Part shown: in pieces, positions 1-16,567 of the stretch
Position numbering within the stretch: the first letter of the stretch is position 1
Layout: each line of letters opens with the position of its first letter
From: Hymenobacter edaphi
GTDB taxonomy: Bacteria; Bacteroidota; Bacteroidia; Cytophagales; Hymenobacteraceae
Direction: 5' to 3'
NCBI RefSeq assembly: GCF_003258365.1
Contig: NZ_QHKM01000001.1
Span: 1,364,001 to 1,428,000 of the forward strand
Length of the DNA stretch: 64,000 nucleotides
Notes under the pieces: model-generated
Seen by the model: only the letters and a program-made list of their open reading frames with translations
The model's database searches: none
What the model was told of the DNA's origin: nothing
Program-made: the position numbers and the translations under genes

Positions 1-1
1 G

Positions 2-673
2 TTGAGCATCACCGAGCTAATCGAGGTCAGCATCCGCACGCGCCTGATCTACACTCTGTCGCTGCAGCATTCGCCTTGGTGGTTTGAAGACCCTTCGTTG
101 TTCAACAGCCCCGACGAGCACGCCGATTTTCTGGCAGCTGTTGACCGCGAGTTGGAGCATTCGCACGAGGAGTTTATTCGAGATCATCGCCGCCGTTATG
201 GGGACGACGAGCGGCGCCCGCCGGCGTGGAAGACACTGGAAGTGGCCACGTTTGGCGCGCTGTCGCGGCTGTATGGTAACATCCGTCCGACCCTCGCTGG
301 TCGGGGCGACATTGCCGACTTCTTCCTGGTGCCGCGAGAGAACTACCTCTCAGGCTGGCTGCAAAGCATTAGCCAGGTACGCAACATCTGCGCCCACCAC
401 GCCCGGTTGTGGAACCGCACCATCACAGCCACACCCCGCCACATCAAACGGATTCAACGTCCCGAGTTGCGGTACAATCCGATCAGCGACTCGCAGCGGC
501 ACAAGCTTTATGCGGTGCTGTGCGTGATGAACTACCTGCTGTATACCATCGAACCAGCGTACTCGCTGCGCCGTCACTTGGTGGAGTTGTTTGCTGAGTT
601 CCCCGAAGTTGATACCGGCGCCATGGGTTTTCCAACGGATTGGCAGGAGCAGCCCTTATGGAAGAGCAGGTAG
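2..673 (+). CDS. Abi_2-family abortive-infection-like protein (5' partial)
   Basis: The reading frame is open to the left edge, so the N-terminus lies outside the window; the TTG at base 2 is probably internal. The visible 223 residues contain an R-N-I-C-A-H-H-A-R-L-W-N-R motif (about residues 127-139), the signature of the Abi_2 (AbiD/AbiF) family. The Arg-x4-His spacing resembles the HEPN RNase motif. Family members are associated with phage abortive infection, probably as RNases. No toxin-antitoxin partner is visible downstream, where a minus-strand recombinase follows after 28 bp. The family call rests on the motif and the overall helical character. Activity in phage defence is inference. 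Confidence 0.75.
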   Translation: MSITELIEVSIRTRLIYTLSLQHSPWWFEDPSLFNSPDEHADFLAAVDRELEHSHEEFIRDHRRRYGDDERRPPAWKTLEVATFGALSRLYGNIRPTLAGRGDIADFFLVPRENYLSGWLQSISQVRNICAHHARLWNRTITATPRHIKRIQRPELRYNPISDSQRHKLYAVLCVMNYLLYTIEPAYSLRRHLVELFAEFPEVDTGAMGFPTDWQEQPLWKSR

Positions 674-701
674 CATGAAGGGGTATGTGGCCAGTAGGGG
701 C

Positions 702-1397
702 TTATGCTGCTGCAGTACCAACTACTACTGCCGGCTGCTCGGAGTCCAGTGGTAGTAACAAGCGCATCACCGTGGTCTTGTGGAACGACTTGCCTTGGCG
801 CGTGCGGTAGCCGTGAGCGTTGAGTTCGGCCGCGATGGCGGCCAGTGTCAGGCCGTCCCGCCGCAGCAGCGTGGCCAGCCGGCGGGCCTGTTTATTGGGC
901 AACGCCTCCTGCGCGTTACGCTGCACCACGGCCCGGCCCAGCGCCCGCGACGCAGCCGTAAAGTTCTCGGGCTTGCCGAGGGTAAAGCCGCGCGCCTTCT
1001 TGGCCGATAGCCCGCGCTTGGTCGACTCGGAGATGTCCTTGGCCCCTTTTTGGGCGACGGCCGCCAGGATGTTGATGGTAAATTCGTCGGCGTTGGGAAT
1101 GTCGCAGGCCTTAAAGCGCACCCGCTCCTCCATCAGCTTGGAGGTGAAATACACGCTGCGCGCCAAGCGCGACATCTCCGCCACGAGCAGTGTCGCCCCG
1201 GCGGCCTTCGTCTCGGCAATAGCCTTGGCCATCTCCGGCCGGTTGTTCTTGCGGCCACTCTCCACTTCGATGTATTCGGCGACGATCCGGTCGCCCGGCT
1301 GCAGGAAACGGTGGGCAATCAGGCGCTGGCCTTCTAGGCCCAGGCCGCTCTGGCCCTGGCGCAGGGTCGAGGCCCGCAGGTAGAGAATGTAGTCCAT
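702..1397 (-). CDS. Serine recombinase, resolvase-like
   Basis: 231 residues. The N-terminal resolvase catalytic domain begins Y-L-R-A-S-T with the nucleophile at Ser10, and carries the motif E-M-S-R-L-A-R-S (about residues 74-81) that supplies catalytic arginines. The C-terminal part (about 165-215) has two helix-turn-helix-like stretches, the second resembling the Recombinase-family linker (A-A-E-L-N-A-H-G-Y-R-T-R). It would cut and rejoin DNA at a short site through a phosphoserine intermediate. It lies outside the Tn3-type end at 1705, so it is either a separate mobile gene or a remnant of another element. The ATG at 1395-1397 fits the start of the domain exactly. Confidence 0.85.
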   Translation of the reverse strand: MDYILYLRASTLRQGQSGLGLEGQRLIAHRFLQPGDRIVAEYIEVESGRKNNRPEMAKAIAETKAAGATLLVAEMSRLARSVYFTSKLMEERVRFKACDIPNADEFTINILAAVAQKGAKDISESTKRGLSAKKARGFTLGKPENFTAASRALGRAVVQRNAQEALPNKQARRLATLLRRDGLTLAAIAAELNAHGYRTRQGKSFHKTTVMRLLLPLDSEQPAVVVGTAAA

Positions 1398-1704
1398 TAT
1401 ATAAGGAGTCGACCCTGTAAACAGGCCCGTTGAATACCCAAGTTACATCCTAAAGACGACCGTTCTTAACTTGTAACCAGAGGTGCAAACGAACTCTGGT
1501 GCCTGCCAAGCTGACGTAGTGATGGGTGAGGTTAGGGCGTGAAGCCCAATGGCTAACTACTCTCGCCGTCCCCATTGGTGCCAATACCCATGATTTCCTC
1601 TTTCCCTTTGCATCCGGTTTGGCAATCCAAACTACTCTGTTACATTTATGTGAATATTTTCCAATAAAGTAGGAATGTGGTCTGATAGTGAAACCACCAA
1701 TGAT
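1398..1704. other. Intergenic region between recombinase gene and Tn3-type end
   Basis: No gene is visible. The stretch is AT-richer than its surroundings. It carries a loose inverted similarity between AAGTTACATCC (near 1440) and AACTTGTAACC (near 1470), which could be a recombination or crossover site for the adjacent recombinase; this is speculative. Nothing else could be supported. Confidence 0.4.
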
Positions 1705-1742
1705 GGGGTTCTTCTTCCAACGGGGCGGATTTACACGCTAAG
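1705..1742 (+). repeat. 38-bp Tn3-type terminal inverted repeat (left end)
   Basis: Starts GGGGTTC and ends ACACGCTAAG, the usual outer and inner parts of Tn3-family ends, and is exactly 38 bp long. It lies 26 bp beyond the stop codon of the transposase gene, the usual place for the tnpA-side end. The sequence just inside (GAATTCG) resembles that inside the two ends at 9599 and 14294. No matching right end was found by eye. Confidence 0.75.
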
Positions 1743-1768
1743 GAATTCGCCCGCTCTAGCCAAGGCTC

Positions 1769-4739
1769 TTACGGCCGGCGTAAGGGCCGGCGGTGCTGCG
1801 GGTCCACCTGGGCCGCATTCTCGAAGGAGTACTTGCCCAGCCGGTTGATGTGCTCGTAGCGGCTGGGCGAGAGGTACTCGAAATGAGTTTCGTCCACCGG
1901 GTAGCCCTCCGCTTGCAGCTGTTGCAGGGCCTCCTGCATGTAGACCGTGTTCCAGAGCACAACGCAGTTGGTGAGCAAGGTCAGGCAGCGGGCGGCCTCC
2001 GCCTGCTCTTCCTGCTGTTTGCGCCGGATCACGCCCTCGCTGCCGAACCAAAGCCAGGCCCGCAAAGCGTGCAACTCCTCGCCCTTGTTGAGTTGGGCAT
2101 GAATGCGCCGCCGCAGCGGCTGGCTTTGCAGGTAGCGCAAAATGAAGTTGGTCTTGATGAGTTGGCCGTAAGCCTGCAGCACGTAGGTCAGGTGGTTTTG
2201 CCGGGGGTACGCCTGCAGCTTGCGGATGAAGAGCGAGGCCGTCACCCGGCCGGACTTGATCGAGCCGGCCAACCGCAGCAGCTCGTCCCAGTGCCGGCGG
2301 ATGTAGTCCGGGTTAAGCGTGCCCGTGAACTTGAGGTCGGGATAGGTCCAGTCCTCGCCCCGGATTTTGTACAGCTTCTGGTCCGCCAGGTCGCGCATGC
2401 GGGGGCAGAAATACAGCCCCAGCAAATCAAACAGCGCGAAAATGATGTCCGAGTAGCCTGCTGTGTCGGTCGTGTGCTCGACGATGGCCAATTCCGTTTG
2501 GTTGTCGACGATTTCATCGAGCACGATGGTGGCGTCGCGCAAGGTGGCCGGCACGACCTTGCTGCCGTACTGCGCATATTGATCCGAGGAGTGCGTCTGC
2601 ATGGTCACGCCCCGGCCCGTGCCGAAGTAGGTGGGCAGGGACCGGGCGTTGCGCACCTTGCCGCTGACGGCGAAGCGCTGCCCGTCCGAGGAGGAAAACG
2701 TGCCCCTGCCCCAGTACGCAGCCAGCCACTGCCGGTGGTGCTCGTTGACCAGGAGCGTATTGGCCGCTTTGAGCGTGTCGTCGCGCAGGTAATTGGCGGC
2801 CGTCCACCACAGCGACTGGTAGGGCAGCCCGGTGCTGCGGGCCATGTCGGTGAGCGGAATGTTGCAGCCCAGCGCGAGCACCCCGGCCAGCAGGCGCGTG
2901 TCGTGCCCGTCGCCGCGCGGGGCGTGTTCCAGCCCGGGCAGCTGGTCGGGGAAGCCCAGCCAGCCGTTGACCTCGACCAGGATGTCGGTCAAATCCACCA
3001 CGGGCAGCCGGCGGCTGATTTCCTGCTGCAGGGCCTGGGCCCCGGCCGGCACCTCTTCCGCGCTGACCCGGCCCACGACCAGTTCCCCGTCCTCCAGGCG
3101 CACGTCGCCCCCGGCTTCCAGCAGTTGTTGCATCGGGGCCAGCAACTCCTGTAATTCCTGCAGGCGCTGCGTGAGGCGGTCGGTGGTCACCGGCGGCAGG
3201 TTCAACTGCGCGCATAGCTCCCCTTTTACCTGCTGCCATTCGAAGGGACCAATCAAATAGCTGCTCAGGATCGGCATATTGATGCGACGGGGCCACGTAC
3301 ACGTCGCCCGAGCGCAGCCGGTCGCGCAGGGTGGAGAGCACGCACAGCTCGTAGGCGTGGCGCACGTCCGGTTCCGGGCTGTCTTCCGCCACGACCAACT
3401 TGCGCCAGGTCGGTTTGAGAAAGCCCGTGGGCAGGGCCGCCGGCAATTTGCGGCGCCGGCCGGCCTGCAGGTCCGCGACCAGTTCCAACGCGGCCGGGAA
3501 GTCGTCGCCGGTAAAGCCGTGCCGGAAGTCCATCTGCGCCAGCAGCCGGGGCGTGAATTGCTTGAACAGGCTGTAGCGCTTGGCCAGGAACGTGAGGTGC
3601 GAATGGCGCGTCGGGTACAGCATGGTTTGCACGGCCTCCCAGGCCAGCACCAGCTGCTCGCGGGGAATGCGGGCAAACACGCTGGGGCGTACCTGCCCGG
3701 CCGGCGTCTGGTCCTCGTCCAAGACGATTGCCACGGCCTGGGCCAGCGTGCGCAGGGCCGTATCTTTGGCGGCGGCAATTTGCTGCTGGTACTGGTCGTG
3801 GGCACGGCGGGCTTTGGCCAGGCTGTGTTCCCAGTAAGCATCGAACAGGCCCAGCACCTCATCGGTCAGCGTCAGGTAACTCTCGCGCAGGAAGGCCACC
3901 AGCAGCGGGTAGCGTTTGGCTACGGGCAGGCGCTCGAGGTGGCGGTTGGAGCGGTTGCGGGCCAGCAACGCCAAGCGTTTCTGCCGGTTCGGGTGCAGGC
4001 TGCGCACGTCCCAGTCCGGCACGCCCAGTTCGCTCAGGTAGCGGAGTTTGTCCAGGGCCGTGGTGATGGCAGCCGGATTGCCGGCCGTGGCGGTCTGCAC
4101 CAGCCAGCGGTGGCGGGTGATGCGCAGCGCCTCGTCCGGCACCAGCAACTGATCCAACTGCCGGCACACGTTTTCGCTCAGCAGCGGGGCCAACCGGCGG
4201 TAGGTTTCCTGGTGGGCCAGTTCGCTCAGGCTGCCGACCAGCCGCTCCAGTGTGCCGATGGCCGGGCGCACGATTTTCGCCTGCTGCAGGCGCAAGCAGG
4301 TCATGGCAAGCAGCCCCCGCTCGTCGTCGTGCTCCAGGGCCCGTTCCACCAGCCACGGTTCCAGCCACGCCAGGTCCAGCGGCTCCCACTTGCGAAAGCC
4401 CAGGTGCTTGAGCACCGCCAGAAAATGCTCGCTGCGGGTTTGCTGCCGGCGGCCGTACGCGCTCAGTTCCGGCGAGACCTCCTGCAACTGAGCGGCGACG
4501 AACGGCGGCACGTCGGGCGGCAGTTGCTCCCACCAGGTGTCGGGCAGAAAGCCCATCAGCCGCAACAGCCCCAGCTGCACCGCCACCCCCAGCCGGTTAG
4601 CCGCGCCGCGAAAGGCGGCGAGGAACAACCGGTCGGCCTCGGTGAGGTGGAAGTGTTGCCGCAGGTCGGCTTCGAGCAGGGCCGCGGGCACGGTCTGGTA
4701 GCGCGCCCGTTCCGGGGCGGAGAGGAAGTCGAGCGGCAT
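1769..4739 (-). pseudogene. tnpA: Tn3-family transposase, frameshifted
   Basis: Encodes a nearly full-length Tn3-family DDE transposase of about 990 residues split over two frames. The 5' part (ATG at 4737-4739) carries the N-terminal DUF4158 DNA-binding region and ends normally at V-Y-V-A-P-S-H-Q-Y-A-D-P-E. The expected continuation S-Y-L-I-G-P-F-E-W is in the next frame, with the junction at about 3262-3267; one extra C explains it. The 3' part has the core H-T-T-D-T-A-G-Y-S-D with a catalytic Asp, and the typical C-terminal W-N-T-V-Y and H-I-N-R-L-G-K-Y-S-F motifs. It would cut element ends and give cointegrates. A GTG at 4773-4775 is a less likely start. A sequencing error is possible; otherwise the gene is dead. 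Confidence 0.9.
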
Positions 4740-4842
4740 GGGCGGCGGCCTATCGAAAAGGGTGTCCAAACGCACCCCGGTTTTTCGGGGTGTCCGGACC
4801 GATTTTACGCCTGAAAAAGTAGCTTTACAAAGGAGTTCCTTT
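4740..4842. promoter_or_regulatory. Probable res/promoter region between tnpA and tnpR
   Basis: The gap between divergent transposase and resolvase genes is where Tn3-family elements keep res and both promoters. It contains a direct repeat of GGGTGTCC (4760-4767 and 4788-4795) and a perfect 7-bp stem CACCCCG/CGGGGTG (4773-4779 and 4786-4792). Assignment as res is inferred from position; the subsites were not resolved. Confidence 0.5.
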
Positions 4843-4857
4843 TTGATAACCCTACCG

Positions 4858-5502
4858 ATGCCTCTGAACCCGATTGCCCCGCCTCCGCGTGTGGCCCTCT
4901 ACGCCCGCGTCTCCACCCTCGACAAAGGACAGGACCCGGAGACGCAGCTGCAACCCTTGCGCGAGTACGCCCAGCGGCGGGGCTTTGCCGTGGTCGAGGA
5001 ATACGTCGACCAAGCCTCGGGCACCAGCGAGGAACGGACCCAGTACAAACGGATGATGGCCGCCGCCAAGAAACGGCAGCTCGACGCGGTGCTGGTCTGG
5101 CGCTACGACCGCTTCGCCCGCTCCACCCAGGCCTTGGTCAACGCCCTGAAGGAGTTCCAGAGCCTGGGCGTAGACTTCATCTCCTACCAGGAACACATCG
5201 ACACGACCACGCCCATGGGCGAGTTGGTGTTCCACGTCATGGCTTCGCTGGCCCAGTTCGAGAGCGCGCTCATCAGCCAGCGCGTGCGCGCCGGCATGGC
5301 GCGGGCCAAGGCCCAGGGCAAACCCATTTCCCGGCCCGCGCTGCCGCTGCGCCAGCAGCGGGAAATTGCCCGCTTGCACGCGCAAGGCCTGTCGATGAAC
5401 CAGATCAGCAAACAGGCCGCCATTGCCTACGGCACCGTGTACAAATACGTGCAGCTGCTCAAGGCCGAAGCACGGGCCCAGGAGGCATGCCGGGGCTCGT
5501 GA
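4858..5502 (+). CDS. tnpR: Serine resolvase of the Tn3-type element
   Basis: 214 residues from the ATG at 4858. The N-terminal domain reads V-A-L-Y-A-R-V-S-T with the nucleophile at Ser19, followed by W-R-Y-D-R-F-A-R-S with catalytic arginines and the E-helix (A-S-L-A-Q-F-E-S) typical of resolvase dimers. A short C-terminal helix-turn-helix (about 165-200) would bind res. It is divergent from the transposase gene, the standard Tn3 arrangement, and would resolve cointegrates. An in-frame TTG at 4843 lies 7 bp after AGGAG (4831-4835) and is a possible alternative start adding five residues. Family call is secure; link to this element is by position. Confidence 0.88.
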   Translation: MPLNPIAPPPRVALYARVSTLDKGQDPETQLQPLREYAQRRGFAVVEEYVDQASGTSEERTQYKRMMAAAKKRQLDAVLVWRYDRFARSTQALVNALKEFQSLGVDFISYQEHIDTTTPMGELVFHVMASLAQFESALISQRVRAGMARAKAQGKPISRPALPLRQQREIARLHAQGLSMNQISKQAAIAYGTVYKYVQLLKAEARAQEACRGS

Positions 5503-5640
5503 ATGCCAAGGAATTACATCTATATTTGCTCGCCTCGCCCTTCCCGTCCTACCACTCCTTATTGCCAGCTGCCCTGCGTACCGCTCCCCGAGCCGGAGTG
5601 CGCCGGCTGCTGGCATTTGTATTTCACCACGTCCCTTACC

Positions 5641-6189
5641 ATGAACCGCCTATATCTCTACGCGGCTTTGCTGCTGCTCACCCAATGTTCCAAGTGCAAA
5701 GACGACCCGCAGCCCAAGAATCCAGAGGACGCATTGCCCGCCGCCACGCAGGAAGGCAAGAACACCTTCGGCTGCCTCGTCAACGGGCAGGCTTGGACGC
5801 CCAAAGGCAGCCTAGGCGGCGTGCCCAACTTCTACGTCAGCTACGACCCCACCTACGCAGGGGGCACCATCGACATCCGTGCCTACCGTTTGCCTAACTC
5901 CGACGATAGTCGTAGGCAGCGCATTACCCTAGGTGGAGGTGATATAAGCCATGTAGGCACTTATGCCTTGGTTGTATCAGACGCAAGAGGCGCCTCTTTC
6001 TACGACGATTTCCGCCCCAGTAGCTGCCAAGAATACCGAAGCGCCGACCCTTTGGTGCATTGCCAGGGCACGCTGACGCTGACGCGCTTGGACGCGGCGG
6101 TGGCTTCGGGCACGTTCGAGTTCGTGCTGGCCAAGCCGGGCTGCGATACGATCAAGGTCACGCAGGGGCGCTTCGACCGCAAGCTCTGA
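5641..6189 (+). CDS. Lipoprotein of unknown function (DUF6252-like)
   Basis: 182 residues starting M-N-R-L-Y-L-Y-A-A-L-L-L-L-T-Q-C, a short lipoprotein signal with Cys16 as the probable lipidated residue. The body begins F-G-C-L-V-N-G-Q-A-W-T-P, resembling DUF6252-type Bacteroidota lipoproteins, and ends G-C-D-T-I-K-V-T-Q-G-R-F-D. It would be periplasm-facing or surface-exposed on a membrane. No function is recognised. A TATATTTG at 5521-5528 could be the -7 box of a promoter. It lies 34 bp before the secreted hydrolase gene on the same strand and may be co-transcribed with it. An upstream in-frame ATG at 5503 would bury the signal peptide and is rejected. Confidence 0.72.
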   Translation: MNRLYLYAALLLLTQCSKCKDDPQPKNPEDALPAATQEGKNTFGCLVNGQAWTPKGSLGGVPNFYVSYDPTYAGGTIDIRAYRLPNSDDSRRQRITLGGGDISHVGTYALVVSDARGASFYDDFRPSSCQEYRSADPLVHCQGTLTLTRLDAAVASGTFEFVLAKPGCDTIKVTQGRFDRKL

Positions 6190-6223
6190 CCCTTCTTTTT
6201 TCATCCCGACTCCTTCGTCGCGT

Positions 6224-9139
6224 ATGCGCAAAATCTACCTGTGTGTAGCCCTGCTCTGGCTGGGCCTTACTTCTGCGTGGGCCACCACCCCGCCCGACTC
6301 CTTGAGGCTGCGGCTAGATTACCTCTTCGCCCCGCTCGACAAAAGCCAGGTGCCCACCGGCTGCCTGGCCGAGTACGCCACGCCGCTGCTCACGCTCGCG
6401 CCCTTCGCCGGCGCGCTCACCGACAGCAGCCTGACCAACGCGCAGGCCTGGCGCATGCTCTACGCCACCTGGGGCAGCAGCCGCCTGGCGGGCAGCAGCG
6501 CCCTGCCCGGCCTGGAGGACGTCGACACCCGCTGGGACGCGGCCCAAACCGCTGCGCCTGCTAGCATCCCGGTGGCCGTGCAGCGCCTGGACTACGCTAC
6601 GTTGCGGCCCGACGCGCTGACGGCCGGTCTGCTCACGGTGCAGAACGAGCAGTTCCACGACGTGGCCGGCCGTTCGCAAAGCCCCTACCTGCGCCGCACC
6701 CTCTTCGCCGCTGCCCCCCTGCGCAGCTACGACCGCGACGGCGTCCTCTCGCTGATTTTCCCCAGCAACCTGCACCTGCGCACCAGCGGCTACCCCACCG
6801 CCCTGCAGGTGGATTTCGGCGACGGCAACGGCTACGTGCCGGCGGCCCGGGACCAGCCCATCGAAGCCTCCTACACCACCGAGGGGGCCAAGCGCATCAA
6901 AGTGCGCGTGACCTACAGCAGCAGCGCGCCGCCCATGCCGGGCAGCATCCGGGTCGCGGCAGCAGCCCCGCAACCCACTTTTACGGTGCTGGAAAGCTGG
7001 TTCGACGTGCAACTCAACGGCATCGGCTGCGCCGGCTGCCGCTACGACTTGCGCGGTGATTCCGTCCTCTTTTCCCCTACCATCGACCGGCACGAAGGCG
7101 CCATCGCCTTCATTCGCTACGGCGGTAACCATACGCCAAACGCCCGGCCCATCCAGCTGGTCAAGCCGCTGATTGTGGTGGAAGGTTACGATGTATCCGG
7201 CATTGCCTCGAAATTCCCGAACCTTTCCATTCGGGACTTTTTGGATGATATAGATAACGATGGCCCTTTCAACCTTCGCAATGCGCTGGACAACGGCGCA
7301 CTGGGCACCATCGGCAACTACGACATCGTCTACATCGATTTTTTGGATGGCACGGACGACATCCGCCGCAACGCGGCGGCGTTTGAGAAAGTCGTGCGCT
7401 GGGTGAATCAGCACAAAGTGCCCGCTACGCCGGGCGGGCCGCTGGAGCCGAACGTGGTGCTGGGCATCTCCATGGGCGGGCTGGTGGCCCGCTACGGCCT
7501 GGCCGAAATGACCAAGCGCGGCAACGACGATCCGCAGACGCGCCAGTTCGTGACCTGGGACAGCCCCCACCGCGGGGCCAACACCCCCCTGGGGGTACAG
7601 TCCTTTACCCGCGCCATGAATCATTTCCTGACGGCTTACACCATTGCCGGGCCGGCCGGCGGCATCGCCCTGAGTATTGTGTTTCCGCAGATTCGCCAGC
7701 TCAAAGACGTGCTGGAAGCGCCCCTGTCGCGGCAGCTGCTGCTGCAGTACGCCACCAACGCCAACGGCGGCTACGCGACCAACACCTTCCTCGACGGGGA
7801 GTACCGCTCGATGATTACCTTCGGCCCCGGCGACCCGGTGCCCGGCTACACCTTCAAGGCGGCCAGCCTCGGCTCGCAATGCGGCACCGACAACGGCTTG
7901 CAGTCCTACCACGAATTGGCCCGGCTGGAAAGCGGGATGTTTCTGACCCCGCTGCCCAGCATCGGCCGCAGCGACCTGCGCGTGCAGGCCATCATCAATT
8001 CGGTGCCGAACTTTGGGGGCGCCCAGCGCATTTCGCTGCTCAAGCTATACGCCAAGTACCGCATCCTTGGCGTCAGTGTACAGGCCAACCTGTTCCGCGA
8101 AGCCGCCGACTCGCCGCCCAACGTGCGCGACTGGGACCGGGTGCCGGGTGGCCTCTACAACGTAGCTGGTTATGCTGGAATTGAGCCAACCGCTCCTGAT
8201 CCATTCAACTGGCGTAACCTGTTTGGGTTCGATTTGCGTCTGGACGCCGTCGACGCGTTCTGCTTCGTGCCCACCTTCAGCGCGCTGGACGTGCCGGAGC
8301 AGACCAACGCCAGCATCTTCGGCGTCTATGCCAACGGCGGTTCTTCCGCCCGCCGCCCGCTGGCCGAGCGGTTTATCGCCCAAGGGCCCTTGGGGGGACG
8401 TTTTAACCAGTTTCACCCCACCTTCAACGCCCGCAACAGCGAGTGGCTGTTCCGGGAAATCCAGAACCTGGGGCCGGCCGGCAACTTCTGCACCCTCGAC
8501 TGCAACCCCTTCCCGGACCTGCGCATCGCCGGCGACGAGCTGATCTGCGCCAGCGGCCCGAACAGCGCGGGGCACTACACCATTGCCAACCTGCCGGCCG
8601 GGGCCACCGTGAACTGGTACGTCGACCCGCCCGGCGCGCTGACGCCCACCGGCCCCAGTACCGGGCCCGCGTTTGACGTGCAGTACGCCGGCCCCAGCGC
8701 CGCCGATGTCACCATCCGCGCGAACGTTGGGTTCTGCGGCACGCCGCTGGCTTTCCCCGTGGCCATCGGCCAGGGCCGCCTCGACATCGAGCCGATGGCG
8801 GACCCGGTGTGCGCCGGCGACAAAATCATTGCGGACGCGCGCACGGTGGGTGTCGGTTCCACCGCCCGCTATACCTGGAAGGTGGACGGGGTGGTCCGGG
8901 GGGCGCTGACCGGCAGCCACTTTGTGCACCAGCTCTACGACCTGAACGCCACCGGCTCGGTGCTGGTGGAGGTGAGCGTGGCCGATGACTGCGGTGGCCT
9001 CCTCACGGCCCAGCGCTACGTGCAGTTCGCGCCCTGCCCCGGGCCCACGGCCGGCCGTTACGCCGTCTACCCCAATCCCGCCGCCGACGACGTGACCGTG
9101 GAGGAAAGCCAGCAGGCCGCCTTCCAGGCCACCCTCTAG
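6224..9139 (+). CDS. Secreted alpha/beta-hydrolase (lipase-like), cut before its T9SS sorting domain
   Basis: 971 residues. The first 20 form a signal peptide ending S-A-W-A. About residues 310-470 form an alpha/beta-hydrolase region with L-G-I-S-M-G-G-L (nucleophile elbow GxSxG, Ser near 415) and a following W-D-S-P-H-R-G-A motif as in triacylglycerol lipases. About residues 770-940 look like immunoglobulin or PKD-like beta domains. The protein then enters a T9SS sorting domain (Y-A-V-Y-P-N-P-A) and stops at TAG 9137-9139. The same frame runs on to TAA 9284-9286 and encodes the rest of that domain. The present product could reach the periplasm but should fail outer-membrane export. Substrate unknown; lipid or ester hydrolysis is inferred. 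Confidence 0.8.
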   Translation: MRKIYLCVALLWLGLTSAWATTPPDSLRLRLDYLFAPLDKSQVPTGCLAEYATPLLTLAPFAGALTDSSLTNAQAWRMLYATWGSSRLAGSSALPGLEDVDTRWDAAQTAAPASIPVAVQRLDYATLRPDALTAGLLTVQNEQFHDVAGRSQSPYLRRTLFAAAPLRSYDRDGVLSLIFPSNLHLRTSGYPTALQVDFGDGNGYVPAARDQPIEASYTTEGAKRIKVRVTYSSSAPPMPGSIRVAAAAPQPTFTVLESWFDVQLNGIGCAGCRYDLRGDSVLFSPTIDRHEGAIAFIRYGGNHTPNARPIQLVKPLIVVEGYDVSGIASKFPNLSIRDFLDDIDNDGPFNLRNALDNGALGTIGNYDIVYIDFLDGTDDIRRNAAAFEKVVRWVNQHKVPATPGGPLEPNVVLGISMGGLVARYGLAEMTKRGNDDPQTRQFVTWDSPHRGANTPLGVQSFTRAMNHFLTAYTIAGPAGGIALSIVFPQIRQLKDVLEAPLSRQLLLQYATNANGGYATNTFLDGEYRSMITFGPGDPVPGYTFKAASLGSQCGTDNGLQSYHELARLESGMFLTPLPSIGRSDLRVQAIINSVPNFGGAQRISLLKLYAKYRILGVSVQANLFREAADSPPNVRDWDRVPGGLYNVAGYAGIEPTAPDPFNWRNLFGFDLRLDAVDAFCFVPTFSALDVPEQTNASIFGVYANGGSSARRPLAERFIAQGPLGGRFNQFHPTFNARNSEWLFREIQNLGPAGNFCTLDCNPFPDLRIAGDELICASGPNSAGHYTIANLPAGATVNWYVDPPGALTPTGPSTGPAFDVQYAGPSAADVTIRANVGFCGTPLAFPVAIGQGRLDIEPMADPVCAGDKIIADARTVGVGSTARYTWKVDGVVRGALTGSHFVHQLYDLNATGSVLVEVSVADDCGGLLTAQRYVQFAPCPGPTAGRYAVYPNPAADDVTVEESQQAAFQATL

Positions 9140-9286
9140 GACGCGCAGGGCCAGCCCCGCCGCCAGCACAGCGCCCCGCAGGGCCGCCTGCGCCTCGACA
9201 CGCGCACGCTGCCCGCCGGCCTCTACCACCTGCAGCTGCGCCGCGGCCAGCAGGTGGAACACCGCCAGATTCAGGTCACGCACTAA
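9140..9286 (+). pseudogene. Severed C-terminal part of a T9SS type A sorting domain
   Basis: In frame with the hydrolase gene after its TAG. Encodes about 48 residues including D-A-Q-G-Q-P-R-R-Q and ending L-P-A-G-L-Y-H-L-Q-L followed by Q-I-Q-V-T-H, the typical end of a type A sorting domain. One base change in CTC-TAG-GAC restores a 1020-residue product. Sequence decay is otherwise absent, so the stop is recent or a sequencing error. Confidence 0.75.
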
Positions 9287-9319
9287 TGCGCAAAGGAAAC
9301 GATCTGTTTGGCATACCCC

Positions 9320-9351
9320 AAGCCCGTCCCTCTCTGAGGGACGGGCTTTTT
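9320..9351 (+). terminator. Rho-independent terminator
   Basis: A perfect 13-bp stem (AAGCCCGTCCCTC with GAGGGACGGGCTT) with a 3-base loop is followed by T residues, 34 bp after the original stop codon of the hydrolase gene. Confidence 0.88.
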
Positions 9352-9598
9352 CGTGATGACTCCAGGTGCAGCAACCCACTAGGCATCGCTGGTCCACAGG
9401 TTATTCCAATGTGTTGTGCAGACCGGCTTGCCGGAGCAGCAAATGAGTCTGGCCCCGCACGGTTACGGCGGCGTGGTCTCCGGTCCGTTTGCGTTGATGG
9501 GCTACCGCTTCAGCCGCCGCTTGGCAGGCTAGCGCTTCTAGCGCCTGCAGAAGAGAACGATTGCGGCCCGCCCAATGAGCGAAGGCGCCGTATTGTCA

Positions 9599-9636
9599 GG
9601 GGTTCCACTAGAGTAGGAACGAAAACCGACGCTAAG
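9599..9636 (+). repeat. 38-bp Tn3-type terminal inverted repeat (left)
   Basis: Starts GGGGTTCCACTAGAG and ends CCGACGCTAAG. It matches the reverse complement of 14257-14294 at 37 of 38 positions; the sequence inside it (CAATTCGG) also resembles the other ends. Confidence 0.88.
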
Positions 9637-9675
9637 CAATTCGGGCATTGGTAAAGGCACATGACTTCACCAAGA

Positions 9676-9714
9676 CTGGGCGAGGCGGTCCCTTATTGGG
9701 TCCGCCTCGCCCAG
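9676..9714 (-). terminator. Strong stem-loop after the two-gene cargo operon
   Basis: A perfect 13-bp stem (CTGGGCGAGGCGG with CCGCCTCGCCCAG) with a 13-base loop lies 20 bp beyond the stop of the minus-strand gene at 9734. No T-run follows on the minus strand, so termination is likely but not certain. Confidence 0.6.
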
Positions 9715-9733
9715 CAAGCTAGTGAAAGGGCCG

Positions 9734-11305
9734 TTAGTGCGTGACGCTGAGTTTCTGGGTAGCCACGGGGCGGCCTTCCAACAGGAGCGAACAGGTATAC
9801 AAACCCGCCGGCAGGCTGGCCAGCGGCACCGCTACCTCGGTCTGCCCTGCCACCACAGGGAATACGCGAATTGTGCGGCCGAGCGCGTCGCGCAGGGTAA
9901 GCGTGGCGCCGCGGCCCAGGCCGGGCGGCAAGACCACCTGCGCCGTGGCACCGGCGGCCGGGTTGGGGTACACGACCAACGCGCCCAGGCCAGTGGCGCC
10001 GCGCGCGGCGGTGACCTGGCGCGGGGTGGTGGCGCGCAGGCGCGCTATCCAGGCCGCGTTGGGCGTCAGCCCGCCCGCCGGGGCCGAGCCGCAGACCACG
10101 GCCACCGAGTCGCCGGCCACGGGCTGCCAGTCGTAAGCGCGCAGATAGGGCGTGCCCGCCGCGGCCGGCAGCTGGCGCCGGCTCAGCCACTGGCCCGTGG
10201 CCGAGAGCCGGTGCACGTACAGGTAAGGCGAGTACTGGGCCTCGGGGCGGTTGCCGCCGAACTCGTCGTAGGTGGCCGCCAGCAGCGTACCGTCGGCCTG
10301 CCGGTACACGCGCAAGCCAATGATAAGGGAGCTACGCCCGTTGGGCAGGCGCGTGCGCCAGAGCACGTTCAGGGCCGTGTCCACGGCCACCACCCACGCC
10401 TCGCTGTCGGTGGTGCCCGTGGGGCGGTTGGGCGCCTGCACGTCCACCCGGCAGTTGAGCACGTAGCCTTCGCCGTTGGGCAGCTCCAGGGTGCGGCCCC
10501 AGAGGCGGTTGTACAACTCCTTGCTGATTGAGTCCTTGAGGATAACCATCCGGCGGCGCCGCTCCCGGCCCAGCGAGTCGAGCAGCAGCAGCGTCGGGTG
10601 CGCGGCCACCTGCCGGTACTGCGTCGTGCCCGTGAGCAAGTAGCCCCCGCCCGGCCGGGCCAGGATGTCCGTGCCCACGGCGTTGCCATAAGATGTGAGC
10701 GAGTTGTAGGTAGCCTGCCAGCGCACGGCGCCGGCTGTATCGGTGCGCATCACCTGCATGCGTTGGGGGGTGATGCCGGAGCCGGCAATGCGCTCCAAGG
10801 CATAGCCCGCCAAGGTAAACCCACGCCGGTCGGGCAACACGCACGAGGGCAGAAAGCCGGCCGACGCGGCGTCACGATAAGTAATACCCGGCAGCGTGTC
10901 GCCGGTGGCCCGAATTTTCTGCAGAAAGGGCTGCGGATTGATTTGCCCGTTGACCGGCGGGCCGTGGCGGCTGCCGACGAACACCCAGCCGCCGCCCCAG
11001 GGCTGCACGTCCTGTTCGCCCGAAATCATTACCCGCCCGCGCCGCTGCCACACGACGTTGCCGGCCGTGTCGTAGCGGGCCAGCAGGTGCGGAAAGTTCG
11101 GGCTGGCCTGCGCGTTGCCGGTGGCCACGTAGCCACCCGCCGTCGGGCGCAGCCAGATGAAGAAGCTTTGCGTCACCGGCGCGGGCAGGCGGATGCTCTG
11201 CTCCCAGGGCGGCCCCACGCGCTGGGCAACCGCTTGGCCGCCGGCTAGCAGCCACAAGAACAGCGCGGGCAGCCACGCCGCCCGCGCCGGTAGGTACTTA
11301 CTCAT
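9734..11305 (-). CDS. Secreted T9SS type A sorting-domain protein
   Basis: 523 residues. A signal peptide runs to A-V-A-Q (about residue 28). The body has repeated short motifs of the kind seen in bladed beta-propellers: G-G-Y-V-A-T-G-N, G-F-T-L-A-G-Y, G-G-Y-L-L-T-G-T and G-E-G-Y-V-L-N-C. The last 75 residues are a T9SS type A sorting domain (V-V-Y-P-N-P-A ... L-P-A-G-L-Y-T-C-S-L-L ... L-S-V-T-H). It should cross the outer membrane and be anchored or released. Its ATG overlaps the end of the upstream gene by 8 bp, which suggests coupled translation. It is cargo of the 9599-14294 element. Function beyond surface display is unknown; the propeller is inferred from repeat spacing. Confidence 0.82.
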   Translation of the reverse strand: MSKYLPARAAWLPALFLWLLAGGQAVAQRVGPPWEQSIRLPAPVTQSFFIWLRPTAGGYVATGNAQASPNFPHLLARYDTAGNVVWQRRGRVMISGEQDVQPWGGGWVFVGSRHGPPVNGQINPQPFLQKIRATGDTLPGITYRDAASAGFLPSCVLPDRRGFTLAGYALERIAGSGITPQRMQVMRTDTAGAVRWQATYNSLTSYGNAVGTDILARPGGGYLLTGTTQYRQVAAHPTLLLLDSLGRERRRRMVILKDSISKELYNRLWGRTLELPNGEGYVLNCRVDVQAPNRPTGTTDSEAWVVAVDTALNVLWRTRLPNGRSSLIIGLRVYRQADGTLLAATYDEFGGNRPEAQYSPYLYVHRLSATGQWLSRRQLPAAAGTPYLRAYDWQPVAGDSVAVVCGSAPAGGLTPNAAWIARLRATTPRQVTAARGATGLGALVVYPNPAAGATAQVVLPPGLGRGATLTLRDALGRTIRVFPVVAGQTEVAVPLASLPAGLYTCSLLLEGRPVATQKLSVTH

Positions 11306-13694
11306 GGCCTACTTGCAACCGTTGTACGCTCACCGGACGGCCGCCGACCACCAGCGTGCAAACGTAGAGCCCCGGTGTTACCCCGGTCAGCTCCAAGGTC
11401 GTCTCCCGGCTGCCGGCGGCCAGTGGCAGCGTGCGCACGGCGTTGCCCGTGAGCAGGCTGCTCAGGCGCAGCTCCGCGCTGGCCACGCCTTTCGGCAACG
11501 CGTACGCCACCTGCACGCGCCGGCCCGCCGGGTTGGGGTATAGGTCCGTCAGCTGGCCTTCCACGGCCACGCGGCGCAGCCCGGCCGGGGCCGGCGCGGC
11601 TCGTTCGCTGGTCGGCAGCAGCTCCAGGCCGGGGCAGTAGTAGCGCAGCAGCACGGCCGCCGGCTCGGCCGCGCCCGTGCCGGTCAGGGCCACGTGGCGC
11701 AGGGCCAGGCTGTCGGCGGCGGCCAAGGCCTCGCCCGGCCCCGGCCGCACCGTGCGCAGGCGTTCCACCACGGCCAGGTAGCTGGCCCAAGCGCGGCTGT
11801 CGGCGGTGCCGTTGCTCACCAGATGCGCCCGCACGCGGGCGGCCCCGGCCACGTCGAGGCTTTCGTACGTGTAGTGGCGCAGCAACGGTAGCGCCAGCTC
11901 GTTGTACGCGGCGGCATTGGCCGTGGGCAGGCTCAGCGCGTAGGTTTCCAGAGCAGCCGTCAAGCCCAGCGCCAGGTGCTCCCGGGCAATAATGGCGGTG
12001 TATTGACGCAGGCGCTCGGCGGGCGCGGCCTGGCGGCGTACCGTATCCATCAGCGCGGTTACGTAGCTGCTGAGCGTGCCCGTGCCGCGGTTCACGCCTA
12101 CCACGTCGCTGAAGCCGCGCCCCAAGCAGCCGTTGCCGGTGCCGCCGGGAGTAGGCGTAACGCCGGTATTGTTAACAAAACCGCTCGTACCACCATCAAT
12201 GGCCAGGACCAATTCGTCACTTGAATTGTAACGATTGTATGTAAAGAAGCCATTTGTGCCATCATTGGTCACCTTCGAGAAGGTCCCACCCGAAGCAGGC
12301 ACGAACTTATTGCCTGCCGGCACGGATGCCGTCCCCTGATCCTGCAAAAAGGCGCCGCTCTGAATCCAGAGGCCGCGCATGCCGTTGAGCGCGGGCGGGG
12401 CGATGGTGTTGCACTCCAGGGCAAAGTTGGCACTCACGCCGGGATTGGGCAGGATGCGGAAGCCATTGGCGCAGTTGCTGAGGACGTTGGTATTCACCGA
12501 CACCGGCTGGCTCGTGCCGCGCAGGCTGATGCCGTAGGTCAGGTCGGTGAGCGTCTGGCCGGTGAGGTTGGCGGCCATGTCTTCCACCAGAATGCCCGTT
12601 TGGGCCCGTTTCTGATTAGTCAGTGTGTCCTGCCCCCCATCACCTTGCACCGTCACTTTCAGGAGCGGGTTGGTATGCCGGCGCAGTAGGGCGCCGTAGG
12701 CGGGCGTGGTGGCGCTCAGTTGGGGCGTGGTGACGTTGTTGGTGATCAGCTTCACCGAGCCGATCAGCCGGGAGGTCGGCGCTTCGTCCAGCCAATACCC
12801 CACTACCTGAATGCCTTCCAGCTGGTTTTGCTCGAAATCAATATCCGCCGACTTGGTCACGGTGTTGGAGATGCCGTACAGCGCGTTGTGAAGCAGGTTG
12901 TGGTCCACCTGCACGTCCGTGGCGCCGTCCAGCGGGCACAGCGCATTCAGACGCAGCCCTTCGTAGGTGAATATCAGGTTTGCCGCGCCACTGCCGGAGT
13001 TGCTGAAGGGCGCCAGCATGGGTTGGGAATCGGAATACAGCAGGTTGTAGGAAATGGTGCTGGCGCCTGGTCCGCCCGCGGCCCCGTCGTGGCGGCCTTC
13101 GTCGTACACGTGCTGGTAATTGCAATAGAAGACGTTGCGCTCCAGCTGGTAGTGGCTCACTTTGGAGCTGGGCAGCACGTAGACGGCGACGTAGGCTTGT
13201 CCGATCTGGCAATCCAGCAATTCCAGGCGCTGGCCCGCCACGTCCGGGTCGAGCTCGAAGCCGCGCCACATAAACGAGCACGCCGCCCGAAACTGCGCCT
13301 GCTCGGCGTGGAAGACGGCGTTCTTGCCCAGGCGCAGCTTCCGGCCGGTGACTTTGGCCGGCACGCTGCGCCCCAGCCCGTCGATGTAAAACACCGTGCC
13401 GGGCCGCACGTCGACGTAGCCGTTCTCAAACACCAGGTCGCCGACGACGTGGTACGTGCCCGAATACGTCTGGTTGCCGCTGATGACGGTGGTCGTCGTG
13501 GCGTTGCCCAATACCGGCACGTTGCTGGCGAACGTGCAGGGGCCGACGTTCCAGCTGACGTTACCGGGCACTTGCGCGGCCACCGGCGCGGTGCTTAGGT
13601 AGAGCAACCAGCCCAGCAGGCCAGCCAGCAGCCGTACCGAAACACGGGACGCGGTCTGCAGCCGCGTCGGGGGGGGGGTAATTCTGAAATGCAT
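11298..13694 (-). CDS. Secreted right-handed beta-helix-like T9SS protein
   Basis: 798 residues. After M-H-F-R-I-T-P-P-P-T comes a signal peptide ending A-P-V-A-A-Q (about residue 40). Residues 60-460 show the irregular repeats of parallel beta-helix surface proteins (for example N-P-L-L-K-V-T-V-Q and Q-V-D-H-N-L-L-H-N). A helical stretch follows (about 550-690), then a type A sorting domain (L-Y-P-N-P-A-G ... T-P-G-L-Y-V-C-T-L-V-V ... Q-R-L-Q-V-G-H-E). Codons 6-9 are a run of ten C, so slippage would switch the frame before the signal peptide. It is the first gene of a two-gene operon inside the Tn3-type element. Adhesin-like or glycan-binding roles are possible but unsupported. Confidence 0.8.
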   Translation of the reverse strand: MHFRITPPPTRLQTASRVSVRLLAGLLGWLLYLSTAPVAAQVPGNVSWNVGPCTFASNVPVLGNATTTTVISGNQTYSGTYHVVGDLVFENGYVDVRPGTVFYIDGLGRSVPAKVTGRKLRLGKNAVFHAEQAQFRAACSFMWRGFELDPDVAGQRLELLDCQIGQAYVAVYVLPSSKVSHYQLERNVFYCNYQHVYDEGRHDGAAGGPGASTISYNLLYSDSQPMLAPFSNSGSGAANLIFTYEGLRLNALCPLDGATDVQVDHNLLHNALYGISNTVTKSADIDFEQNQLEGIQVVGYWLDEAPTSRLIGSVKLITNNVTTPQLSATTPAYGALLRRHTNPLLKVTVQGDGGQDTLTNQKRAQTGILVEDMAANLTGQTLTDLTYGISLRGTSQPVSVNTNVLSNCANGFRILPNPGVSANFALECNTIAPPALNGMRGLWIQSGAFLQDQGTASVPAGNKFVPASGGTFSKVTNDGTNGFFTYNRYNSSDELVLAIDGGTSGFVNNTGVTPTPGGTGNGCLGRGFSDVVGVNRGTGTLSSYVTALMDTVRRQAAPAERLRQYTAIIAREHLALGLTAALETYALSLPTANAAAYNELALPLLRHYTYESLDVAGAARVRAHLVSNGTADSRAWASYLAVVERLRTVRPGPGEALAAADSLALRHVALTGTGAAEPAAVLLRYYCPGLELLPTSERAAPAPAGLRRVAVEGQLTDLYPNPAGRRVQVAYALPKGVASAELRLSSLLTGNAVRTLPLAAGSRETTLELTGVTPGLYVCTLVVGGRPVSVQRLQVGHE
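13669..13678. repeat. Ten-base homopolymer (G on plus, C in coding strand)
   Basis: Ten consecutive G on the plus strand are codons 6-9 of the gene reading leftward from 13694. Tracts of this length inside the first codons are classic sites of slipped-strand phase variation. It is the longest G/C run noticed in the window. Confidence 0.85.
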
Positions 13695-14256
13695 AAGCAG
13701 GAAAAAGATTGAGGGTGAAGACTAAATGCGGGCAAGCTAAGCGAAAAAAGATACCCAGCGTGCGTAAAAACGACTTGCGATCCCATTAAATCGCTCATTT
13801 CGGGCACAGTAATAAAACCGCCCGTTCCGTACGGTCTAGTGCGCTTACACGGGGCCGGGCAGTTCTCGTTTCCCGCTGCGGGACAGCAGCTGTCACCGCA
13901 TTGTAAACGACGCACACAATCGCACCGCTCACCACGCGCCCTGTTCCGGCAACCAACCAGGAGGGGTTTACAATTGCGCCGCCATCGAGCGCATTATACA
14001 AGGGTAGGGTCGCCACGCCCAGGGACGTGTGTGGAGTATAGCCGGCACTGCTGAGCACGACTTCGCCAGCGAAGGTTGTCGTGTAGGGACAGCACCTGCC
14101 CACGCTGTGTGATGCGCTCTACGAGTGGCTTATGGCGTACCACCTGTAAACGAACCGGCCGCGTTTACGACTGTACGTTACCGGATCGCATTGCCGACGG
14201 GGACCTCCACCCGTTGCGCGACCCCGCCCGTTGGGAAGAACGCTTGGCCGAATTTC
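13695..14256. other. Non-coding right part of the Tn3-type element
   Basis: About 560 bp between the start of the cargo operon and the right terminal repeat. It must hold the operon promoter, but no clear TAnnTTTG box was found upstream of 13694. The last 100 bp (14160-14260) read like the end of a protein in the plus direction (D-G-D-L-H-P-L-R-D-P-A-R-W-E-E-R-L) without a convincing start, which may be a relic of an older passenger gene. No other feature could be supported. Confidence 0.4.
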
Positions 14257-14294
14257 CTTAGCGTTGGTTTTCGTTCCTACTCTAGTGGAACCCC
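14257..14294 (-). repeat. 38-bp Tn3-type terminal inverted repeat (right)
   Basis: Reads CTTAGCGTTGG inward-to-outward and ends CTAGTGGAACCCC. It is the inverted partner of 9599-9636 with one mismatch. The outer GGGG abuts the remnant of a plus-strand gene. Confidence 0.88.
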
Positions 14295-14377
14295 AGTACC
14301 TGGTGCGCGGCGGGCAGCTGCTGTTTGCGGCCACGGTGTCGTTTATCGTATGGTTTCTCACCGCGCTGGCCGGCTAG
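14294..14377 (+). pseudogene. Clipped 3' end of a membrane-protein gene
   Basis: Directly next to the right terminal repeat an open frame encodes 27 residues, including G-G-Q-L-L-F-A-A-T-V-S-F-I-V-W-F-L, a clear membrane segment, and ends at TAG 14375-14377. The stop overlaps the start of the next gene by 28 bp, as in an operon. The 5' part is not found left of 9599, so the element's arrival or a later deletion removed it. Identity unknown. Confidence 0.5.
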
Positions 14378-15766: not shown

Positions 15767-16402
15767 TCAGATCTGCCCGCGGGCGTGGCGGCTCACCAGC
15801 TCGGTGCGCGAGCTGACCTGCAGCTTGCGGTAGATGCGCTTGACGTAGGTGCGCACGGTTTCCACCGAGAGGTCGAGGCGAGTGGCCACCTGCTTGTCGC
15901 CGAGGCCGTCGACGATGGCCTGCACCACTTCCCGCTCGCGCTCCGAGAGCAAATCGGACTGCGTGGCGGGGCTGGGCTTGAAGTGGGCCAGCACCTTGCG
16001 GGCCACGGCCCGGCTCATGGGCGCACCGCCGCTCACCACTTCCAGCACGGCGGCCTTGATGTCGGCCAGGGGCGTGTTTTTGAGCACGTAGCCGGAGGCG
16101 CCGGCGCAGAGGGCGCGGTAGATACGGTCGGCGTCGTCGAACACGGTTTGCATCAGCACGTCGGCCTCGGGCAGGCGCTGCTTGATGATGGGCAGCGCGT
16201 CGAGCCCGCTCATGCCGGGCAGGTGGATATCGAGCAGGACAACCTGCGGGGCCGCCGCCAGATCGGGCAGCTCGGCCAGGAAGGCCTCCACCGAGTCGGC
16301 CACGAGCACGCAATTCAGCTCGGGCTGGCGGCAGAGGTAGCCGCGCAGCAGCTCGCGCACTTCGGGGTCGTCTTCGACCAGGGCCAGGCGGATGGGATTC
16401 AT
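15767..16402 (-). CDS. NarL/FixJ-family response regulator
   Basis: 211 residues. The receiver domain (1-120) has the acidic pair E-D-D at 10-12, the phosphoacceptor Asp58 in V-V-L-L-D-I-H-L-P-G-M-S-G and the Lys of Y-V-L-K-N-T. The C-terminal LuxR-type helix-turn-helix (about 145-205) has L-S-E-R-E-R-E-V-V-Q-A-I and L-S-V-E-T-V-R-T-Y-V-K-R-I-Y. It should bind DNA when phosphorylated. The most likely partner is the HisKA_3-type kinase at 21881, because both flank two secreted-protein genes whose promoters share a motif. It is divergent from 16568, and the shared motif lies in the intergenic gap. Confidence 0.93.
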   Translation of the reverse strand: MNPIRLALVEDDPEVRELLRGYLCRQPELNCVLVADSVEAFLAELPDLAAAPQVVLLDIHLPGMSGLDALPIIKQRLPEADVLMQTVFDDADRIYRALCAGASGYVLKNTPLADIKAAVLEVVSGGAPMSRAVARKVLAHFKPSPATQSDLLSEREREVVQAIVDGLGDKQVATRLDLSVETVRTYVKRIYRKLQVSSRTELVSRHARGQI

Positions 16403-16452
16403 GGGGGCAAAGGACGGGGCTTCCAGGGGCGCAACCAAGCCGCGGCACGTCC

Positions 16453-16506
16453 CCAAATGCGGTACACGCGGGAGTTGCGAGTGGGATTTTGCCTTGCCAA
16501 GTTTGC
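16453..16506 (+). promoter_or_regulatory. Promoter with shared upstream motif (copy 1)
   Basis: CCAAATGCGGTACAC (16453-16467) is followed, 31 bp after its end, by AAGTTTGC (16499-16506), which resembles the Bacteroidota -7 box. The same motif at the same spacing occurs before the gene at 17981. It precedes the ATG at 16568 by about 60 bp. Confidence 0.55.
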
Positions 16507-16567
16507 ACCGTCGACCCGCCCTGCCCCGGGCGCTTTCCCGGCTGCTTTTCTCCTTTCCCTCTCTTAT

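Follow-up and report, generated by a model that had tools for sequence, protein, structure and literature searches.

A 26-kb Tn3-family transposon with unlike outer ends and type IX secretion cargo in Hymenobacter edaphi

Tn3-family transposons that hold other members of the family together with varied passenger genes have been described (PMC7157771, in the part of the text available). We analyzed a stretch of 64,000 nucleotides of the Hymenobacter edaphi genome (contig NZ_QHKM01000001.1, denoted C11 below, positions 1,364,001 to 1,428,000; hereafter, the window), where two inverted 38-bp repeats enclose a 4.7-kb segment with two overlapping genes for proteins predicted to be exported by the type IX secretion system (T9SS). 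Overall, the locus is a nested Tn3-family transposon of this known kind; mildly surprising are its unlike outer ends, accompanied by a perfect target duplication, and its T9SS surface-protein cargo. It shares with nested and mosaic Tn3 transposons the 38-bp repeats ending in GGGG, a tnpA gene with the DDE_Tnp_Tn3 domain, serine recombinases, passenger genes, and inner Tn3 members, and it differs from those in the available part of that account (PMC7157771) in its host, a member of Hymenobacteraceae, its unlike outer ends, and its T9SS and GTPase-system cargo. Transposase-less Tn3 units known as TIMEs and TIME-COMPs are moved in trans (PMC4133298 and PMC13367494, each available in part), and Tn3-ended cassettes of Xanthomonas carry genes of exported effectors but no transposition enzymes (PMC6304161, likewise in the available part). 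Tn3 together with Hymenobacter was not found in the open-access literature searched, nor, judging by titles and the beginnings of abstracts, was anything on type IX secretion with Tn3; a wider search on T9SS and transposons turned up a paper on Chryseobacterium genomes.

The two repeats in the window are of Tn3 type and identical at 37 of 38 positions (Table 1); a 38-bp match of this quality was obtained in none of 100 shuffles, and imperfect similarity between the repeats extends to 48 nt. When the outer 28 bases were used as a query with up to three mismatches allowed, this pair was the sole match in the genome. The 5-mers beside the repeats are unlike, TGTCA on the left (9599) and AGTAC on the right (14294). 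Outside the window, 11.9 kb to its left, a third Tn3 end starts at C11:1352124; the five bases before it are AGTAC as well, so that the outer pair is flanked by a perfect 5-bp duplication. As a control, flanks of end pairs taken from different handles, a few of which belong to the same genome, were identical at five of five positions in 13 of 2093 comparisons.

Joining the left flank of the third end to the sequence right of the right inverted repeat (IR-R) restored one reading frame, that of a small gene whose pieces, residues 1–82 and 78–105, lie 26 kb apart in H. edaphi. A protein search for this gene in 204 genomes of the family gave a match in 137. It was unbroken in four of the seven same-genus relatives, G198 (86%), G202 (86%), G201 (77%), and G197 (66%), and no match was obtained in the other three (G199, G200, and G203); within the genus, it is split in the window genome alone, and in G090, which belongs to another genus, it is present as two nearby fragments. 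The nucleotide alignment crosses the junction in those four relatives and is ungapped in the best two. In all three relatives from which 10 kb each was fetched, the nearest 0.76–0.80 kb of the left flank and 1.39 kb of the right flank adjoin and overlap by exactly 5 bp, and no match to the 26-kb sequence was found in these three empty-site regions. Because AGTAC is duplicated and the flanks are continuous in relatives, the right repeat is the right terminus of a Tn3-family transposon of 26,171 bp that entered the small gene at AGTAC. The repeat at 9599 is internal and adjoins a broken tnpA. Despite its tidy look, the pair in the window is misleading, being made of one true end and one internal end; only the target duplication and the empty site reveal the real unit behind such an inverted-repeat pair.

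These results bear on the earlier note on this DNA, which took the two repeats as the ends of a transposase-less element. It had correctly placed and described the repeats (38 bp, one mismatch, Tn3-type termini) and recognized between them two overlapping genes for T9SS-exported surface proteins; Tn3-type ends, T9SS-type cargo, and DNA that has moved are indeed present. However, it was not demonstrated that the repeats bound a single element, and the absence of a transposase did not hold, as the duplication and empty sites make the right repeat the end of a 26,171-bp unit with an open-frame tnpA. That no mobility gene lies between the repeats is correct as to complete genes, but the 3' end of a Tn3 tnpA remains at the right inner edge.

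Table 1. Features of the transposon and of its insertion site (window positions unless stated otherwise) and transposase-poor inverted-repeat pairs with target duplications in other genomes of the family
Feature	Position	Strand	Remarks
Tn3-family transposon, 26,171 bp, part in window	1..14294 (own contig C11:1352124-1378294)	.	left end 11,876 bp left of window position 0
IR-R, right end of the 26-kb transposon and right repeat of the 4.7-kb segment	14257..14294	-	repeat comparison
AGTAC, right copy of the 5-bp target duplication	14295..14299	+	left copy at C11:1352119-1352123
3' fragment of the interrupted small gene, residues 78-105	14291..14374	+	residues 1-82 at C11:1351884-1352129
Internal Tn3-type terminal repeat	9599..9636	+	37/38 to IR-R; 5-mer TGTCA without partner
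Degraded Tn3 tnpA remnant, ~residues 775-822, with stops	9458..9598	+	DNA alignment to 9579-9589, weak protein alignment to 9597
Tn3 tnpA 3' end, 27-44 residues, stop codon in IR-R	14124..14258	+	26/45 residues
798-aa predicted T9SS-exported protein, weak right-handed beta-helix match, C-terminal sorting domain	11298..13694	-	
523-aa predicted T9SS-exported protein, C-terminal sorting domain	9734..11305	-	
Strong hairpin between the 523-aa frame and the internal repeat, probable transcription terminator	9676..9714	-	78-base fold, -48.1 kcal/mol
tnpA2, Tn3 transposase gene over two frames	1769..4739	-	frameshift near 3190-3270
Lone Tn3-type end of tnpA2, which belongs to a third, separate Tn3 lineage	1705..1742	+	
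Serine recombinase/resolvase	702..1397	-	
Serine recombinase/resolvase	4738..5502	+	
Abi_2/AbiD-like gene	2..673	+	start outside window
T9SS-type gene, PKD match below cut-off	6224..9139	+	TAG stop inside sorting domain
Transposase-poor duplicated pair, 3,327 bp	G036 C4		
Transposase-poor duplicated pair, 1,417 bp	G053 C4		
Transposase-poor duplicated pair, 4,804 bp	G054 C31		
Transposase-poor duplicated pair, 12,521 bp	G013 C27		

The transposase of the outer unit, tnpA1, is encoded near its left end by an open frame of 1143 amino acids with the full DDE_Tnp_Tn3 domain (PF01526, E-value 1.8e-150) and DUF4158; Tn3 tnpA genes lie approximately 5–8 kb and 17–20 kb left of the repeat at 9599. Within the 4.7-kb segment, the inverted Tn3 ends surround DNA without a complete transposase gene, the tnpA stub inside amounting to 27–44 residues. 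The segment's own target duplication was looked for and was absent (TGTCA on one side, AGTAC on the other), no partner of TGTCA was found within the 40 kb scanned, and neither a second copy nor another site of the segment was found, with a single pair in the genome. Both edges of the segment carry parts of tnpA genes. The left remnant is on the same strand as the internal repeat and reaches it from outside, with similar bases discernible by eye up to 9598. The right stub is joined to IR-R and has its stop codon in the repeat, as in intact relatives; its inner limit is soft, DNA similarity starting at 14157, and over the final 138 bp, IR-R among them, identity is 82% to H. metallicola and 88% to H. 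gummosus.

Most probably, a second Tn3 element was nested in the 26-kb transposon and later reduced, with its right end common to both. Carrying the T9SS pair, it would have landed in the tnpA on the right-hand edge of the outer element and would have lost its own tnpA except for the short 3' stub. Recombination between the parallel right ends would then have deleted the right flank of the inner element together with what remained of the outer tnpA, leaving one right end to serve both layers. Such a scheme would account jointly for a left remnant that breaks off at the repeat, the lack of a partner for TGTCA, the stub of tnpA, and the common right end. This history of insertion followed by deletion is what we infer from the arrangement of the sequence.

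Several points weigh against this interpretation. On the left side, approximately 0.8 kb of more distal sequence failed to align in the three relatives; on the right side, alignment stopped at 1.4 kb in two of them. The left tnpA remnant comprises about 130 aligned bp with 68–76% DNA identity to several lineages and is assignable to no subgroup, so the inner history rests on two short remnants. The activity of TnpA1 and its use of the internal end are predictions. Finally, both outer ends are 38 bp long and GGGG-ended, but they match each other at only 27 of 38 positions, against 34–38 in the other 18 duplicated rows of the survey given below, and their pairing by one transposase is hard to account for; one outer end may have been exchanged after the insertion. 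Unlike ends combined with a perfect duplication make this transposon a test case for the strictness of Tn3 transposases in end pairing.

The unlike ends would also be expected if the outer unit were a composite of two neighboring Tn3 elements of different subgroups, the distal ends of which moved everything between them. The left end and tnpA1 resemble elements in which tnpA stops approximately 0.8–1.2 kb from the end, and the right end resembles elements in which tnpA runs into the end. A second mixed pair of the same two kinds was found in H. jeollabukensis (G205 C7:93781-116589, L088 and L089), where the unlike ends match at 28 of 38 positions and lie 22.8 kb apart; this pair has no duplication and no recognizable tnpA of the lineages tested, the ends alone being common with the 26-kb transposon. 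However, a search of the 26 kb gave no additional inner ends of either kind. A composite origin is a possibility that we hold at somewhat less than even; it is compatible with the nested reading and not opposed to it.

Less likely, in our opinion, is that the internal end is a dead leftover of an adjacent deletion or of a rearrangement, with the T9SS genes as mere passengers and no smaller unit ever moved. Intramolecular Tn3 transposition yields deletions and inversions, and the failure to find the TGTCA partner in the 40 kb would fit such an event, as would the position of T9SS homologues away from inverted repeats and from this tnpA in nine of ten other loci. Against it, the internal end is correctly oriented and matches IR-R at 37 of 38 positions, and the T9SS genes and the tnpA 3' stub lie between the two in the order of a deleted element. 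At window 9599 and, in favor of the nesting, also at G208 C14:13275 and G095 C3:13899, a Tn3 end adjoins a truncated tnpA of another Tn3 element within approximately 10 bases, a hint that insertion into one another's transposase genes is frequent among the Tn3 elements of this group.

Ends of this kind were surveyed in relatives. The scan of named genomes gave 24 stretches, all of Hymenobacter or Hymenobacteraceae, and a looser end pattern had matches in 64 of the 204 family genomes. Part of the pairs in these 64 genomes was tabulated as 45 inward-facing pairs in 50 regions, 43 of the pairs from other genomes; the rows include alternative pairings of the same ends, one 12.5-kb element present twice (99.99% identical), and two pairs longer than 20 kb that were covered in part. 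A perfect 5-bp duplication was found in 19 rows including the 26-kb pair (two further rows could not be judged, a flank being missing), and in 18 of the 19 the ends are alike at 34–38 of 38 positions. Two duplicated pairs lie outside the table, one of 1,271 bp in G203 (38/38, TATAC) and one of 262 bp in L105 (31/38, TTGGA); because of the latter, the gap between the 27 matches of the 26-kb transposon and the nearest duplicated pair is four bases. In H. gummosus, seen as two separate 8-kb blocks, CAGCC stands beside both ends.

Transposases were screened for with proteins of three lineages, coverage being counted for two, so that a very distant transposase could be missed; on this basis, five of the 19 duplicated rows, corresponding to four elements (Table 1), had fewer than 100 residues of recognizable tnpA. 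The cargo of the 4,804-bp element comprises a response regulator, a histidine kinase, a PAP2 protein, and an Omp85 protein. The 1,271-bp derivative in G203, of the same genus as H. edaphi (C3, L018 1375-2645), retains only the C-terminal 222 residues of tnpA; its two 38-bp ends are identical, and TATAC flanks it on either side. Given these five rows and the G203 element, transposase-poor derivatives with duplications exist in the group, although movement in trans and a loss of tnpA that followed insertion would leave the same picture. Inverted-repeat pairs of 241–274 bp (L101, L102, L103, L087 18937-19198, and L105 3253-3514) are likely miniature elements of the TIME type; none of the short pairs in the table has a perfect 5-bp duplication, and TTGGA is present on both sides of the 262-bp pair in L105. 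Among 20 open reading frames (ORFs) scanned in three other elements, dehydrogenases, an epoxide hydrolase, a patatin/Omp85 protein, and an efflux pump were encoded.

Such derivatives (G036, G053, G054, G013, and G203), the near-perfect repeat pair (37/38) without a complete transposase inside, and the open-frame tnpA1 in the same genome would suit the 4.7-kb segment as a free-standing transposase-less Tn3 cassette (mobile insertion cassette) moving in trans, but this is quite improbable, with no target duplication around the segment, a right end that is the end of the 26-kb unit, only one such pair in the genome, and, among the best few candidates scored in each of the 204 family genomes, nothing close to the cargo. 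As a demonstrated unit, the cassette is rejected because its own duplication is missing and its right end is common with the 26-kb unit. The segment resembles TIMEs and TIME-COMPs in having Tn3 ends without a complete transposase, a TnpA expected to act in trans, and pairs of 241–274 bp in relatives; it differs from them, as they appear in the available parts of PMC4133298 and PMC13367494, in the absent duplication, in a right end common with a full transposon, and in single ends that are not TIME copies. With the Xanthomonas cassettes it shares Tn3 ends around exported-protein genes and the lack of transposition enzymes, but those are numerous and carry type III secretion cargo, whereas here there is one segment, without its own duplication and with T9SS cargo (PMC6304161, in the available part). 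The cargo was earlier regarded as unusual; T9SS-type cargo is indeed present, but transposase-less Tn3 units with exported-protein genes had already been described in Xanthomonas, as the accessible portion of that paper indicates.

A family of T9SS cassettes, which the earlier note expected as the same ends around different T9SS genes, was not supported by the survey and is rejected: an ORF with a T9SS sorting domain was found in none of the 43 other inverted-repeat pairs, nor in a smaller earlier set. The hidden Markov model (HMM) used was not blind to other T9SS genes, since it also found a host gene at 15785-17767 (E-value 1e-8) and a gene on G095 C3 (E-value 3e-6). The search for ends in relatives, proposed as a check, gave the ends but no other T9SS cargo between the tabulated pairs, and the empty site was found for the 26-kb unit.

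The ORFs of the 798-aa and 523-aa cargo proteins overlap by 8 bp. As judged by sequence models, both proteins carry a C-terminal sorting domain of T9SS type A: the HMM built here, which was seeded from these two proteins and their homologues, gave E-values of 2e-25 and 7e-29. Of the curated models, TIGR04183 matched the 523-aa protein at the cut-off and did not match the 798-aa protein, and PF18962 matched both below the cut-off; the sorting domain of the 798-aa protein is thus below curated cut-offs and rests mainly on the HMM seeded from the cargo pair itself. N-terminal signal peptides look typical by eye in both translations. SprA, the component covered by our T9SS search, was encoded in the window genome (SprA_N, E-value 5e-137). 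Searches against Pfam and solved structures revealed little on the folds of the cargo proteins. The two genes point away from IR-R and are probably transcribed together up to the hairpin, which was absent from a terminator scan requiring a T run, and their products would reach the surface via the host T9SS.

Among the best few candidates scored per genome, no close copy of the cargo was found in the 204 family genomes, the best homologues being 36% (798-aa protein) and 44% (523-aa protein) identical. In eight of ten loci compared side by side, identity was approximately 27–41%; near-full-length relatives of the 798-aa protein are few, and tandem pairs occur elsewhere. Neither an end of this kind nor such a tnpA was seen in nine of the ten loci, two of which are short (3.3 and 10.3 kb). 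The earlier note had named as decisive against it repeats that are single-copy in all relatives and conserved core genes without the ends; homologues do occur without ends, but the ends occur in relatives, and the genes are accessory, of low identity, and not core. Cargo as conserved core genes without the ends is rejected, near-full-length relatives of the 798-aa protein being few (best 36% identity). The tenth locus lies on the 54-kb contig C3 of G095 from another genus (L120, L129, and L130), probably a plasmid, with Rep3 and ParA genes. There, 65 bp separate the end of a homologous T9SS pair from a 15.2-kb Tn3 element with unlike flanks, the other end of which adjoins a truncated tnpA2-like gene. 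As one case, this link of a T9SS pair with a Tn3 element is suggestive, no more.

By replicative transposition, TnpA1 would be expected to mobilize the entire 26 kb. It may also use the internal end and move the 4.7-kb part alone, as the near-identical right end seems to be accepted. Smaller and larger units with one common end are familiar from Tn1721, which holds the smaller Tn1722 and in which a third repeat gives both units the common end; here, the smaller unit is without a transposase and its movement is a prediction. We consider it doubtful that TnpA1, by moving either the 26 kb or the T9SS pair alone, shuttles surface proteins between replicons of Hymenobacteraceae. If it does, the homologous pair 65 bp outside the Tn3 element on the probable G095 plasmid would be a second case of such travel.

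The genes between C11:1356648 and 1363451 (L021 12648-19451) encode PNP/EAD1, GAP1-N1/EAD1, DO-GTPase1, DO-GTPase2, and GASH domains, a set which we take to be a predicted conflict system. With these GTPase-system genes and the AbiD-like gene, the 26-kb transposon resembles a carrier of defense genes, so that a large Tn3-type transposon with unlike outer ends and with defense-like and surface-protein cargo is documented in Hymenobacteraceae. The third Tn3 lineage is represented by tnpA2 and its single end, for which no inverted partner was found when 84 kb was scanned with as many as 15 mismatches allowed; the sole other match (15 mismatches) has the same orientation. A 38-bp end identical to that of tnpA2 is present on G095 C3 beside a relative of tnpA2. 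The frame of the T9SS-type gene starting at 6224 stays open beyond its TAG stop to approximately 9283.

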